Below are positions 26,607-63,780 of a stretch of 64,000 bases of DNA, piece by piece. How positions within the stretch are numbered: position 1 is the first letter of the stretch; each line of letters opens with the position of its first letter. Under the pieces are notes generated by a model. The model had not been told where the DNA came from. It saw only the letters and a program-made list of their open reading frames with translations, and made no database searches. The stretch is from Collinsella sp. TF06-26 (GTDB lineage Bacteria > Actinomycetota > Coriobacteriia > Coriobacteriales > Coriobacteriaceae): positions 1-64,000 of the forward strand of contig NZ_NKXR01000011.1 of NCBI RefSeq assembly GCF_002232035.1. Reading direction: 5' to 3'. The position numbers were made by a program, and so were the translations under genes.

Positions 26607-26965
26607 TGTTCCCCTCCTTTCCTTATTGACGCCTCTTTGGCGTCACCCCTTGCGCGGTCTGTTTTGCCGCGCGCTTTTATTTCATGGCTTTAAGATACGG
26701 CCTTGGCACAGCAGCGCCGTTTGTAGCTCGACCGAAGGCAGAACTGCAAAACGAACGGCGCCGTTTTTGGGACGAACGGCGGGGGACGCCACTCGTTGCG
26801 AGCGTCCGTTTTGATGACGTGATTCGATCACTCGTGGAGGGTGTCGTTTTATGGTGCCAAGCCCACCCTGTTCGTGCCGTTTATCGAACTTTTGTCGCAC
26901 GCGCTCATTTGCTGCACGTCTTTTTTGTAGGATGAACGGGTTATACATGAGACGAGGTGGTACAA
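26607..26965. other. Divergent intergenic region between the permease and C39 protein genes
   Basis: About 360 bases that must hold promoters for both genes. Two small hairpins lie near the permease. No convincing -35/-10 pair could be picked out by eye for either direction. Confidence 0.5.
26627..26672 (-). promoter_or_regulatory. Two hairpins in the permease mRNA leader
   Basis: TGACGCC / GGCGTCA with a 5-base loop (26627-26645) and GCGCGG / CCGCGC with a 9-base loop (26652-26672) lie directly upstream of the permease ribosome binding site. The first could also be a protein-binding dyad (TGACGCCNNNNNGGCGTCA). No known riboswitch is recognised. Confidence 0.35.
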
Positions 26966-27970
26966 ATGGCATACGGATACAACGACGGCGAACGGCAGCG
27001 AAACGTTCGCCTTGCCGGGCGTACCACGCCAACATCCAGGAGTATTTCTGACAACGACGGGCCGCAGAACCCGCAGCGTCCGCAGGATCGCCCCTCGTCC
27101 TCTATGCCGCAGGATGCCAGCACGCGTCAGGCGGATCGCCCATACTCGGGCACCCGTCAACGCCGGGCCGAAGTGCATCGGCGGCAGAAAAACGATCGAC
27201 GAAAGTCCGACAATCACACCATCCGTTTCTTTTCGAAGCCCCGCGGCGGACGCGGCGCAAAGCAGCCACGACCGATGGGACATGTCAGGGCCGTCAATCC
27301 GCAGATTCATCGTCTCTGCCTTGTCCTTTGCTCCATCATGGCATGTCTTGCCTTTGTGTATCTGGGGTCGTGCGCCTCGCATGGCTCTGCCGGTCTAGAG
27401 CCCACCGCCGAGGAAAAGCTCCTCAAAGCCCCGGTCGCACCCGGCTACTCGTTTGCTTTTTCGACCCCGCGTTCGCAGTGGAGTGCCGGCACCATGCCGC
27501 ATATCTACCAGATCGACCCCGCATGGTCGGAGCTGCCCTACGCCGGCGGCACTATCCGCCAAAACGGCTGCGGACCCACCTGCCTCACCATGGTCTACAT
27601 CTTTAAAACGGGGCGCACCGATATGACACCGGCGGATATGTGCGCGCTTTCCGAAGCGGGCAACTATGCCCCCACCGGTGCCACCGAGTGGTCATTTATG
27701 ACGAGCGGCGCATGGCGGCTGGGACTTAACGGGGCACAGCTCTACAACGACCGAGACTCGATGGCTCAGGCCTTGCGCTCGGGTGCTCCCGTAATCGCCG
27801 CCGTGCGTCCCGGCACGTTTACTAACGTAGGTCATTACATCGTGCTCTACGGCATTGACGACGCCGACCAGATCGGTGTCTACGACCCCAACTCGCCCAG
27901 CCGTAGTGCCCGCCGCTGGGGCGTAGTGGAGGTCCTCAACGAAATCGAAGCCATGTGGGCCTACTACTAG
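26966..27970 (+). CDS. Membrane-anchored C39-like cysteine peptidase
   Basis: A 334-residue protein. It has a basic, Arg/Gln-rich disordered N terminus (1-105), one membrane helix (about 115-136, LCSIMACLAFVYL), and an extracellular C39_2 papain-like domain. The putative catalytic residues are C202 in RQNGCGPTCLT, H290 in NVGHYIVLYG and D307/N309 in YDPNSP. It lacks an ABC transporter, so it is not a bacteriocin processing transporter but a surface peptidase or amidase of unknown substrate. ATG 26966 has GAGGTG upstream; a GTG three codons earlier overlaps that site and is less likely. It faces away from the permease and ends next to a repeat element. Confidence 0.8.
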   Translation: MAYGYNDGERQRNVRLAGRTTPTSRSISDNDGPQNPQRPQDRPSSSMPQDASTRQADRPYSGTRQRRAEVHRRQKNDRRKSDNHTIRFFSKPRGGRGAKQPRPMGHVRAVNPQIHRLCLVLCSIMACLAFVYLGSCASHGSAGLEPTAEEKLLKAPVAPGYSFAFSTPRSQWSAGTMPHIYQIDPAWSELPYAGGTIRQNGCGPTCLTMVYIFKTGRTDMTPADMCALSEAGNYAPTGATEWSFMTSGAWRLGLNGAQLYNDRDSMAQALRSGAPVIAAVRPGTFTNVGHYIVLYGIDDADQIGVYDPNSPSRSARRWGVVEVLNEIEAMWAYY

Positions 27971-27981
27971 TCATTGGGCAC

Positions 27982-28206
27982 TCATTGGGGACAGACTTAA
28001 ATGAGTGGCCCAGACTGCCCGGAACTGCCGGCACGGAAGGCGCATCCCGCTTTGAAGTTCAATAGCGGGATGCGCTTTCCGTTAGCGGCCTGCTTGGGAA
28101 ACTGAGAGCCACTTTTCGGCAAAATTCCGGGATGCATTTTCCGGTTGAGGGCCTCAAAGGAAACTGCACCCGTTTTGGACTACTCATTTAAGTCTGTCCC
28201 CAATGA
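27982..28206. repeat. Repeat element with 25-base perfect terminal inverted repeats
   Basis: The ends 27982-28006 and 28182-28206 are perfectly complementary over 25 bases and include GGGGACAGACTTAAATGAG. Between them lies an array of five 14-base motifs in alternating orientation. The left edge is 11 bases from the C39 stop codon. The outer repeat resembles short palindromes often seen between bacterial genes and associated with REP-type transposases, but no such transposase is encoded here. Confidence 0.85.
28035..28172. repeat. Alternating 14-base motif array, copy 1 (five units)
   Basis: Units start at 28035 (reverse, GGAAGGCGCATCCC), 28067 (forward, GGGATGCGCTTTCC), 28097 (reverse), 28129 (forward, GGGATGCATTTTCC) and 28159 (reverse). 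Steps are 32, 30, 32 and 30, so spacers are exactly 18, 16, 18 and 16 bases. The first two units form a hairpin with 16 of 17 pairs. Confidence 0.9.
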
Positions 28207-28368
28207 CTACTCGCCTCCTCACTTGCAGCCATCTCAACAGACACTATGACCCAATCCGAGGGCACTAAAAAGATAGGAGCCCCCGCTCGTGACCGCGGGT
28301 CGGGGCTGCGACAATGATGTTGAAGCGCCATAGGCGCAGCCGCGCCGCAACGAGGTTGGGAGGCTCCC

Positions 28369-29490
28369 ATGCCAAAGTATTCTACCGCGTTCGGGATGGA
28401 CGTCCACCTGAGGTCGACCACCGTCTGCGCCCTCGACGCGGACACCGGCGAGGCCGTGACGAGGAGGTTTCCCGGCAACCCCTGGGGCGAGATCGCCGGG
28501 TGGATGGACGGGTTCCCCGGCCCGTCGCTCGCGGCCTACGAGAGCGGCTACCTCGGCTTCGCCCCGCAAAGGGAGCTCGCCGGGCTCGGCGTCGAGTGCG
28601 TCGTCGCCGCGGTCTCGAAGATCCCCAGGTCGGCCGCCGACTCGGCCTCCAAGAACGACAGGAACGACGCCGCCAGGATGGCCAAGGCGATACTCGCCCA
28701 CGACATCTCCCCCGTATGGGTCCCCTCCCCCGAGGTCGAGGGCATCAGGGACCTCGCCGGCGCCTACGACGAGGCGACCGCGCGCCTGGCGACCGCCAAG
28801 CAGCGGCTGCTCGCCTTCCTCGCAAAGCGAGGGTTCGCCTACGGCGGCACCACGCCCGCCGGCAACCCGAGGAAGTACTGGACCTACGACTTCCTGAGGT
28901 GGCTCGACAAGGTCAGGCCGGAGGACGATGGCGGGGTCCGGACGCTCGCCGCCCTGAGGAACGAGGTCGAGGCCGCGGCGGAGGCCCGGGCGGACCTGCT
29001 CTCCGAGTACAGGGCGGCCGTGGATGCCAGCCCGATCGCCGCGGAGGTGGCCGCCCTCCAGTCGATCAAGGGTTGCGCCTTCGCACTGGCCGCGGCCTTC
29101 TCGGCCGAGGTCGGCGACTTCACGAGGTTCCGCTCCGGAAGGCAGGTCACGGCCTACTTCGGCCTCGCGCCGAGCCAGAGGTCGAGCGGCGACTCCGTCC
29201 GGCTCGGCGGACTCAGCGGCGCGGGCAACGCGCTCGTGAGGAAGCTGGCCGTCGAGGGCTCATGGTGCTACGCCGCGGCGCGGCACCAGCCGAAGCTCAT
29301 GCCGAGGGACACGGGCGTGCCCCTCGAGATAAGGATGCACGGGAGGAAGGGGTCCGAGCGGCTCCTGCGGCGGCGCGAGGAGATGCTCGCCCGCGGCATG
29401 CCCCAGGCGAAGGCCAACGCGGCCACCGCGGCCGAGCTCGTGAGGTGGCTCTGGGCCCTCGGCATGATGTGCCGGGAGGGCGCGGAATAG
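28369..29490 (+). CDS. IS110-family transposase (DEDD recombinase)
   Basis: A 373-residue protein of full family length, with no internal stop. The N-terminal RuvC-like domain has D11 (GMDVHLRST), a Glu in AYESGYLG and the NDRNDA motif (DEDD set). A coiled middle follows, and then the C-terminal Transposase_20 domain with IKGCAFALAAAF and the serine-bearing GLAPSQRSSGDSVRLGG segment, where the recombinase serine is expected. GGGAGG lies upstream of the ATG. Codons are strongly GC-rich (many AGG Arg codons), different from the host genes around it, which supports recent arrival. It appears intact and potentially active. Confidence 0.95.
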   Translation: MPKYSTAFGMDVHLRSTTVCALDADTGEAVTRRFPGNPWGEIAGWMDGFPGPSLAAYESGYLGFAPQRELAGLGVECVVAAVSKIPRSAADSASKNDRNDAARMAKAILAHDISPVWVPSPEVEGIRDLAGAYDEATARLATAKQRLLAFLAKRGFAYGGTTPAGNPRKYWTYDFLRWLDKVRPEDDGGVRTLAALRNEVEAAAEARADLLSEYRAAVDASPIAAEVAALQSIKGCAFALAAAFSAEVGDFTRFRSGRQVTAYFGLAPSQRSSGDSVRLGGLSGAGNALVRKLAVEGSWCYAAARHQPKLMPRDTGVPLEIRMHGRKGSERLLRRREEMLARGMPQAKANAATAAELVRWLWALGMMCREGAE

Positions 29491-29870: not shown

Positions 29871-30833
29871 CTACTCGTGGATGCGGGTACCGGAGAGGCC
29901 GGCCATGGTCTCGGCGGCCTTGTCCAGGGCGCCGATGATGCAGGTGCGGCCCTTGCGGGAACGGGCGAACTTGATGGCAGCGCGGACCTTGGGCTCCATG
30001 GAACCCTTGCCGAACTGGCCCTCGTCGGCCAGGCGCTCGGCCTCGTCGGCGGTGAGGTCCTCGAGCTCCTCCTGGTTGGGCTTGCCAAAGTTGATGGCGA
30101 CATGCTCGACGGCGGTCAGCAGGAACAGGACGTCGGCGTCGCAGTCCTCGGCCAGCAGCTCGCCGCCCAGGTCCTTGTCGATGACGGCGGGAACGCCCTT
30201 GTAGCAGCCCTTGTTCTCGTAGTCGCGGACGACGGGGATGCCGCCGCCACCGCAGGCGATGACGATGAACTCGTTGTCGAGCAGGTTGAGGATGGAGTCA
30301 GCCTCGACGATCTTCTTGGGATCGGGGGAGGCGACGACGCGACGCCAGCCGCGGCCGGAATCCTCGACGAAGACCTTGGAGGGGTCCTCGGCCATGAACT
30401 CCTTGGCCTGCTCCTCGGTGTAGAAGGGGCCGATCGGCTTGGTCGGGTTCTTGAACGCGGGGTCGTCGGGGTCGCACTCGATCTGGGTGACGACGGTGGC
30501 GGCGTGCCAACGCTTGTAGCGCTTGTGCATCTCGCGGCCGATGCCCTGCTGCAGGTGGTAGCCGATGTAGCCCTGGGACATGGCGCCGCACTCGGGCAGC
30601 GGCATCTCGGGGGTGCCGATGGCGTCGTGGGCGGCGGCGAAGGCGTTCTGGATCATGCCGACCTGCGGGCCGTTGCCGTGGGTGATGATGATCTCGTTGC
30701 CCTGCTCGATGAGACCGAGGAGAGCGTGGGCGGTGTTGCTCACGGCCTCGATCTGCTCGACGGGGTTGTTGCCGAGGGCGTTGCCGCCAAGGGCGACGAC
30801 AATACGATCGGGCTTGCCAAGAGGCTTAGACAT
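29871..30833 (-). CDS. arcC: Carbamate kinase
   Basis: A 320-residue cytoplasmic enzyme that makes ATP from carbamoyl phosphate and ADP, usually the last step of arginine deiminase or agmatine catabolism. The conserved blocks are IVVALGGNALG (about 11-21), ITHGNGPQVG and ACGGGGIPV. The chosen ATG has AAAGGA upstream. No arcA or arcB gene is next to it, so the carbamoyl phosphate source must be encoded elsewhere. Upstream is an unusually AT-rich gap of nearly 700 bases. Its codons are biased to favoured GC-ending codons, as in nifJ, which suggests high expression. Confidence 0.95.
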   Translation of the reverse strand: MSKPLGKPDRIVVALGGNALGNNPVEQIEAVSNTAHALLGLIEQGNEIIITHGNGPQVGMIQNAFAAAHDAIGTPEMPLPECGAMSQGYIGYHLQQGIGREMHKRYKRWHAATVVTQIECDPDDPAFKNPTKPIGPFYTEEQAKEFMAEDPSKVFVEDSGRGWRRVVASPDPKKIVEADSILNLLDNEFIVIACGGGGIPVVRDYENKGCYKGVPAVIDKDLGGELLAEDCDADVLFLLTAVEHVAINFGKPNQEELEDLTADEAERLADEGQFGKGSMEPKVRAAIKFARSRKGRTCIIGALDKAAETMAGLSGTRIHE

Positions 30834-31199
30834 TGCTGGAATCCTTTCTGTAAAAGGCCTACAACCCATTAATAACCCGCGTCCGTGCGATACGCGAGTT
30901 TATTAAGGTTTATATTCTCTTTATCGCTCATTTTATTCATTTTGAAAATACCTAAGCGGCGAACGGTCGATTTTACCCGCTCAGCGTAAAGAAGCCCAGT
31001 TCAGGCATATCTACGCCATTTACGTGCAACTTTATTTAAATAGAGCAGGGATTAGACCAGATTATGCAAACTATATCTTTGCTAAACACAAAACGGACAG
31101 CGCAATATCTTACTCGCACTATACGCGATTCTATACATTAATTTGACGAGTATGCACCCCTGCAAAAACATGGGGCTTTTCATCCAACATAAGGGATAG

Positions 31200-52476: not shown

Positions 52477-52914
52477 ACGGCCTCCATAGCGTGTCATTAT
52501 ATCGCTCGAGCCGCTCGTTTATCTCTGTTCTCACACCAGCCAGCATCAATGATTCAGGCGAACTCCAATCCGCGCCAGATCACGGTCCGGCTTTTGTTCG
52601 CAGTCCCCACATCAAAGCGGGATGCGGTTTCCTTTTGGACGCCGATTCGGAAAGTCCGTCCCGTTCCAGGCCAATATTCTGGGATGCAGTTTCCACAGCC
52701 CACCCCAATCGGAAAGCGCATCCCATTATTTGGCTGAAAACTGGGATGCGCTTTCCGGACGCGTCGAAACGGAGTCGGATCGATCGGATCACCTCGTCCC
52801 CGTTTCCTCGCCATCTTCCTGAGCGTGCTACACTAGCAGCATCTATGCCACCGCGAACGGCTCGGCCCCGCGCCCGCCGCTCGCAAACGAACTTTAAACG
52901 CACGAGGGTTGGCC
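52477..52914. other. Divergent intergenic region between the LuxR-type regulator and the kinase cluster
   Basis: About 440 bases. The middle third is filled by array copy 2. The remaining 110 bases up to the kinase gene hold no clear promoter by eye, although the main kinase/cell-wall operon must start here. Confidence 0.5.
52619..52756. repeat. Alternating 14-base motif array, copy 2 (five units)
   Basis: Units start at 52619 (forward, GGGATGCGGTTTCC), 52649 (reverse, GGAAAGTCCGTCCC), 52681 (forward, GGGATGCAGTTTCC), 52711 (reverse, GGAAAGCGCATCCC) and 52743 (forward, GGGATGCGCTTTCC). Steps are 30, 32, 30 and 32. It lies in a divergent promoter region and has no bounding inverted repeat, unlike copy 1. 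Confidence 0.92.
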
Positions 52915-63475: not shown

Positions 63476-63780
63476 ATGTCGTATTAGTGTAGCAGATTTA
63501 CGCCGCTGTAATGCAGCGTATACCCACTCTTCGAAGTTGCGGTGGAACAGCCCTCCGGAAAGTGCGTCCCACTATCCAGGCAAATTCTGGGTCAGACTTT
63601 CCCCATGAGACCTCGCTGGGAAACTGTGACCCAGAATTTCGGCTCGAAACGGGACACGGTTTCCCAAACGACCCCGTTCCGGAAACTACATCCCGGAATC
63701 GACGCTCGAACTGGGATGCACTTTCCCGATTGAGCCACATGGGAGACTGCGCCCCACTTTGAGGGGGCGCTCTTTAATGA
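63476..63780. other. Intergenic region between tRNA-Arg and the last gene
   Basis: About 300 bases, of which 200 are array copy 3. The first 60 hold an imperfect hairpin (TACGC ... GCGTA around 63500-63521) and presumably the tRNA-Arg promoter. Confidence 0.5.
63557..63755. repeat. Alternating 14-base motif array, copy 3 (seven units)
   Basis: Units start at 63557 (reverse, GGAAAGTGCGTCCC), 63589 (forward), 63619 (reverse), 63651 (forward), 63681 (reverse, GGAAACTACATCCC), 63713 (forward, GGGATGCACTTTCC) and 63742 (reverse, GGAGACTGCGCCCC). Steps are 32, 30, 32, 30, 32 and 29. The second and third units share a compensated variant (GGGTCAGACTTTCC and GGAAACTGTGACCC), keeping the arms partly complementary. 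Confidence 0.9.

Follow-up and report, generated by a model that had tools for sequence, protein, structure and literature searches.

Dispersed TIRYT-type terminal inverted repeats around an unrelated palindromic array in Collinsella sp. TF06-26: a probable mosaic formed in place

In this work we describe a 225-base palindromic composite of Collinsella sp. TF06-26, located in a window of 64,000 nucleotides (the whole stretch of DNA that was analysed). Its arms are most likely dispersed terminal inverted repeats (TIRs) of the TIRYT type that surround an unrelated array, and the composite is probably a mosaic formed in place, not a transposon. The same repeats, differing by one base, flank a Y1 transposase in relatives, and in this way a transposase can be assigned to repeats that are scattered through the genome of a common gut bacterium. 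The perfect inverted repeat around the array is no evidence that the array has moved. Features of the site are collected in Table 1.

Table 1. Features of the composite and its neighbourhood (window positions)
Feature	Position	Strand	Remarks
Upstream gene, C39-like peptidase domain protein	26957..27970	+	in relatives, a TIR cluster adjoins its stop codon
Left TIR	27982..28006	+	TIRYT-type terminal repeat, core GGGGACAGACTTAAATGA; Y1 transposase in relatives is flanked by the same family
Interior palindromic 14-mer array	28033..28172		units at 28035 (-), 28067 (+), 28129 (+), 28159 (-)
Right TIR	28182..28206	-	perfect inverted copy; exact copy beside the array at 3/22 orthologous sites
IS110-family insertion	28237..29490	+	transposase ORF 28369-29490; the given end is the ORF end
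Downstream convergent gene, putatively carbamate-kinase-like	29871..30869	-	downstream in relatives too

Structure of the composite

Repeat search detected inverted arms at 27982-28012 and 28176-28206 with 94% identity, and their perfect part amounts to 25 bases, TCATTGGGGACAGACTTAAATGAGT. This was also the longest perfect inverted repeat of the 401-base region, in which 100 dinucleotide shuffles gave a maximum of 11 and a mean of 7.8; the search and the shuffles together confirm the 25-base perfect repeats claimed in an earlier note on this DNA. That note correctly placed the left end 11 bases past a stop codon, since the upstream ORF stops at 27970. It was also right that only this copy of the array is bounded in such a way: the arrays at 52619-52757 and 63557-63727, as well as those inspected elsewhere in this genome, lack such ends. 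Both arms contain GGGGACAG, which is a GGGGWSAS motif. The predicted fold of the composite is very stable (-136 kcal/mol, z -12.8), and no Rfam match was obtained at the site. A single TIR folds weakly, into an 8-bp stem with a 13-base loop, and because of this the repeat falls outside the REP definition; inspection of its sequence and fold revealed neither a GTAG nor a CGTC foot.

Besides the units given in Table 1, the interior array holds a degenerate 14-mer unit near 28097. Successive 14-mers alternate in orientation (period about 62 bp), which makes the arrays palindromic in themselves and corrects the earlier note. Arrays of this family reach about 17 units in one place (the two further window arrays named above; positions 2440-2950 of L060). 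The array was also considered as the repeat of a second transposase, a candidate that we rejected: GGGATGCRNTTTCC is absent beside the Y1 genes examined, with one IS200-type tnpA (L101) as the sole exception.

The TIR family and its transposase

With up to 3 mismatches allowed, the TIR core gave 31 matches in the genome of Collinsella sp. TF06-26 and none for the reversed control. Most of the copies are single or form inverted pairs 9-60 bp apart, without an array, and the window TIR family thus has the dispersed singles and dimers that are a feature of TIRYTs/TIRtrons. The alternative offered in the earlier note, that the ends form an independent repeat family, therefore holds, with about 30 copies in this genome; its genome-wide check, whether the repeat always encloses 14-mer arrays, gave a negative answer. 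Across the genus the TIR and array families are co-distributed in one clade, being present in the same 22 of 43 genomes, save for one stray 14-mer in a 23rd. Four genomes without the transposase (G003, G006, G007, G033) carry 7-16 TIR copies. Among the strains compared we caught no TIR or TIR pair in the act of transposing; because most TIR pairs hold the same place in many strains, mobility of the TIRs is something we infer. At several sites (L014, L016, L018, L019) TIRs are accompanied by a further palindrome family, GAGAGTGGATAATCTCCC...GGGAGATTATCCACTCTC, located next to them or in the space between two of them.

In C. aerofaciens relatives, a Y1 (HUH) transposase gene occupies one fixed locus adjoining the gene of ribosomal protein L28, the latter named from its sequence. 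Full-length genes of this group are open frames of 265-283 aa with NHFHL (the HFH motif) and YIHLNP. Pfam assigned Y1_Tnp above the cut-off, C-terminal HTH matches were weak and below Pfam cut-offs, and a profile of the Collinsella Y1 proteins matched TnpArep 4er8 with E=4e-4. Except at contig ends (L133, L159), every full-length gene is enclosed by two inverted copies of the GGGGACAGACTTACATGA type with a spacing of about 1 kb, and GGGGACAGACTTACATGA, found on both sides of the transposase, is one base from the window TIR. This near-identity bears out the link to a Y1 transposase of the REP-associated type encoded elsewhere, which the earlier note had proposed. The TIR family would have been made, now or formerly, by this TIRYT-type enzyme, which may have scattered the TIRs.

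No intact cognate transposase was found in the genome of Collinsella sp. TF06-26. It retains a 267-bp relic, a TIR pair (C5:60111-60377) around a fragment coding ...LLDYIHLNPVKGALDSLES..., and a query with this fragment returned proteins 81-88% identical in close relatives and 83-91% identical in named C. aerofaciens or Collinsella records. We compared the L28 locus in 21 genomes. Full-length spacing was seen in 11, one of them with a broken frame, and a short relic of about 210-270 bp in five, this genome included; single genomes had a bare TIR-10bp-TIR palindrome, one TIR with a fragment, or a contig end, and two had nothing. As the series is graded and confined to one locus, the relics represent decay in place and not transposed derivatives. 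Running from an intact gene to a bare two-repeat palindrome, it offers a model, open to test, of the way in which the ends of a transposase turn into free-living palindromes.

We rejected another Y1-type protein of this genome (C12:25796-26032; L057 1763-2779, minus strand) as an active mobiliser, because both its HUH motif (MSDCVDL) and its Tyr motif (SVHADP) are lost; no TIR lies within 1.5 kb of its gene. It can be read as a decaying transposase or as one put to other use. Among the Y1 genes that relatives carry at an apparently equivalent chromosomal position, both motifs are kept in G034 and the tyrosine alone is lost in G008 and G009. Inverted repeats of a different kind, around GGGACGGGGC, accompany other Y1 transposase groups of Collinsella (L110, L113, L124); the genus thus harbours several such pairs of transposase and repeat.

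Di Nocera et al. 2013 described RAYT-like genes with long flanking TIRs as TIRtrons or TIRYTs, which share a GGGGWSAS motif and whose TIRs are dispersed as singles, dimers and clusters (PMC3733652). The Collinsella system is alike in having a RAYT-like Y1 transposase between long inverted repeats, in the fit of GGGGACAG to this motif and in its dispersed TIRs; it differs in the single fixed locus of the gene, where decay is graded, and in the changing interiors of its TIR pairs. Most TIRYTs fall into TnpA-Y1 subclass 2.1, whose members have a C-terminal HTH domain and lack REP hairpins (PMC6006769). The Collinsella protein shares with this subclass the Y---NP motif, a HuH with a hydrophobic middle residue, the C-terminal HTH and the lack of a compact REP hairpin beside the gene (PMC6006769), an assignment by features. 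As in REP/REPIN (RAYT) systems, inverted doublets of a short repeat are linked to a single-copy Y1 transposase (PMC3116915), whereas the Collinsella TIR has no GTAG or CGTC foot, forms a weak stem with a long loop and reaches about 30 copies at most. BrickBuilt of Porphyromonas gingivalis, a minisatellite within a MITE, is likewise an intergenic tandem array with small inverted-repeat ends, but that unit occurs 19 times in one genome, and the Collinsella composite at one locus only (PMC4596501). The main texts of PMC3733652 and PMC6006769 contain no mention of Collinsella or Actinobacteria, and our literature search returned no report for the genus.

Variation at the orthologous site and at other TIR pairs

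At the orthologous site of 22 genomes the left TIR is present in 17, the array in 10, and an exact right TIR beside the array in three (this genome, G030 and G011). In the other seven array-positive strains the array passes directly into CTTTAAGGACTGTCCC or TTTAGAGAACGTCCCC, that is, TIR-like or other palindromes. Every array-positive strain has a TIR-like or other palindromic motif right of the array, and judging from these sequences a closer link between array and TIR would be conceivable. Array-free sites range from TIR mosaics down to one TIR-like motif of 29 bases that is joined directly to the stop codon (G005, G009, G023, G034). A search for empty sites found array-free places in relatives that keep TIRs and differ among strains in several modules. 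Array and right TIR vary independently, coming and going separately among the 22 sites, which speaks against the idea that the unit moves as a whole. When array presence is mapped on a tree built from the 1.9 kb upstream, at least three changes on well-supported branches are required; since this tree is poorly resolved and the strains may recombine, losses, gains and exchange look alike on it.

A comparison of positions by eye in the 16 genomes with complete lists shows a single place where a TIR and a 14-mer array are neighbours, the orthologue of 27982-28206. A rough estimate, with about 20 TIR and 10 array places per genome, makes one chance meeting in a spacer not surprising. This coincidence at one orthologous locus speaks against the view of the earlier note that the array could be cargo of a 225-base mobile unit. 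According to that note, terminal repeats found mostly alone, without empty sites and without variation among strains would argue against such a unit. The repeats are indeed mostly alone; variation among strains, array-free sites included, does exist, yet what varies is a mosaic in place and not a unit at several places.

The TIR pair C1:293302 was compared in 16 genomes (L284-L299). Median identity was 1.00 for the arms, 0.92-0.93 for the flanks and 0.55 for the interior, thus the arms are more conserved than the interior at this further locus too. Interiors range from 23 to 159 bp and are of at least five kinds (23, 34, 40-43, 47 and 159 bp), the longest being a mosaic of other palindromes. 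At the TIR pair C37:115969 the interior is constant at 19 bp in 13 genomes. The interior can therefore be replaced with the arms kept, but not everywhere. From the independent variation at the window site and of arms and interior at C1:293302 it follows that TIR pairs behave as stable frames with changeable contents, and this behaviour is the most interesting residue of our analysis. In bacteria, imperfect palindromes are known to gain more perfect arms through template switching (PMC7202029). Variants common to both arms were seen 37 times across sites versus 12.4 expected, and the test for arm-to-arm correction inside single sites gave no significant result (p=0.45). With an outcome that is suggestive across sites and negative inside them, such correction was rejected as proof of template switching.

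Origin of the composite and rival readings

We propose that two inverted TIRs came to lie behind the C39-peptidase gene and that a second, unrelated palindromic array family settled between them. Repeat families would have gathered in a single intergenic spot flanked by convergent genes, where a TIR cluster captured the array. Deletion, replication template switching within palindromes or recombination among strains would then have remodelled the locus without moving it. Such reshaping would alter the interior faster than the arms; which of the processes swaps interiors can only be inferred.

Were the composite a 225-base miniature element, its TIRs would act as working ends, and a TIRYT would move the array in trans as cargo. 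Its perfect ends do belong to the family of the transposase's own ends, and the TIR-array-TIR arrangement recurs in G030 and G011. Still, we regard this origin as very improbable: the location is a single orthologous one, the unit was looked for at non-orthologous sites and not found there, the ends usually occur without the array, the array lacks the exact right end in seven of ten strains, and this genome has no intact cognate transposase. A bidirectional terminator or mRNA 3'-end structure, kept between convergent genes and with its repeat origin secondary, would agree with the very stable predicted fold and the convergence of the flanking genes. This explanation appears improbable, as several strains have a mere 37-base spacer with one TIR-like motif and a separate GC-rich hairpin; because of them, the structure is dispensable.

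TIR pairs could also serve as exchange frames, in which the Y1 protein or single-strand intermediates swap interior cassettes, the array being one content. Arrays, other palindromes and the transposase gene would then be alternative contents of one kind of TIR frame, swapped by Y1. At least five interiors between identical arms at C1:293302 in 16 genomes, and an interior of the L28 locus that goes from the full gene down to 10 bp, agree with such exchange. However, several interiors can be derived from one another by small changes, slippage and template switching explain them without the enzyme, and the 19-bp interior of C37:115969 is stable, so that both the exchange and its attribution to Y1 seem rather unlikely to us. 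The mosaic formed in place thus stays the preferred reading.

The IS110 element lies 30 bases right of the 225-base span, and orthologous sites in relatives lack it. We rejected it as a source of the TIRs, the insertion context of IS110 copies being different. In about 10 of the 14 IS110 copies read (L235-L248) the element directly follows a motif similar to GCCGATGTTTTGGCAACG, which hints at a target preference; the window copy is placed in a different sequence.
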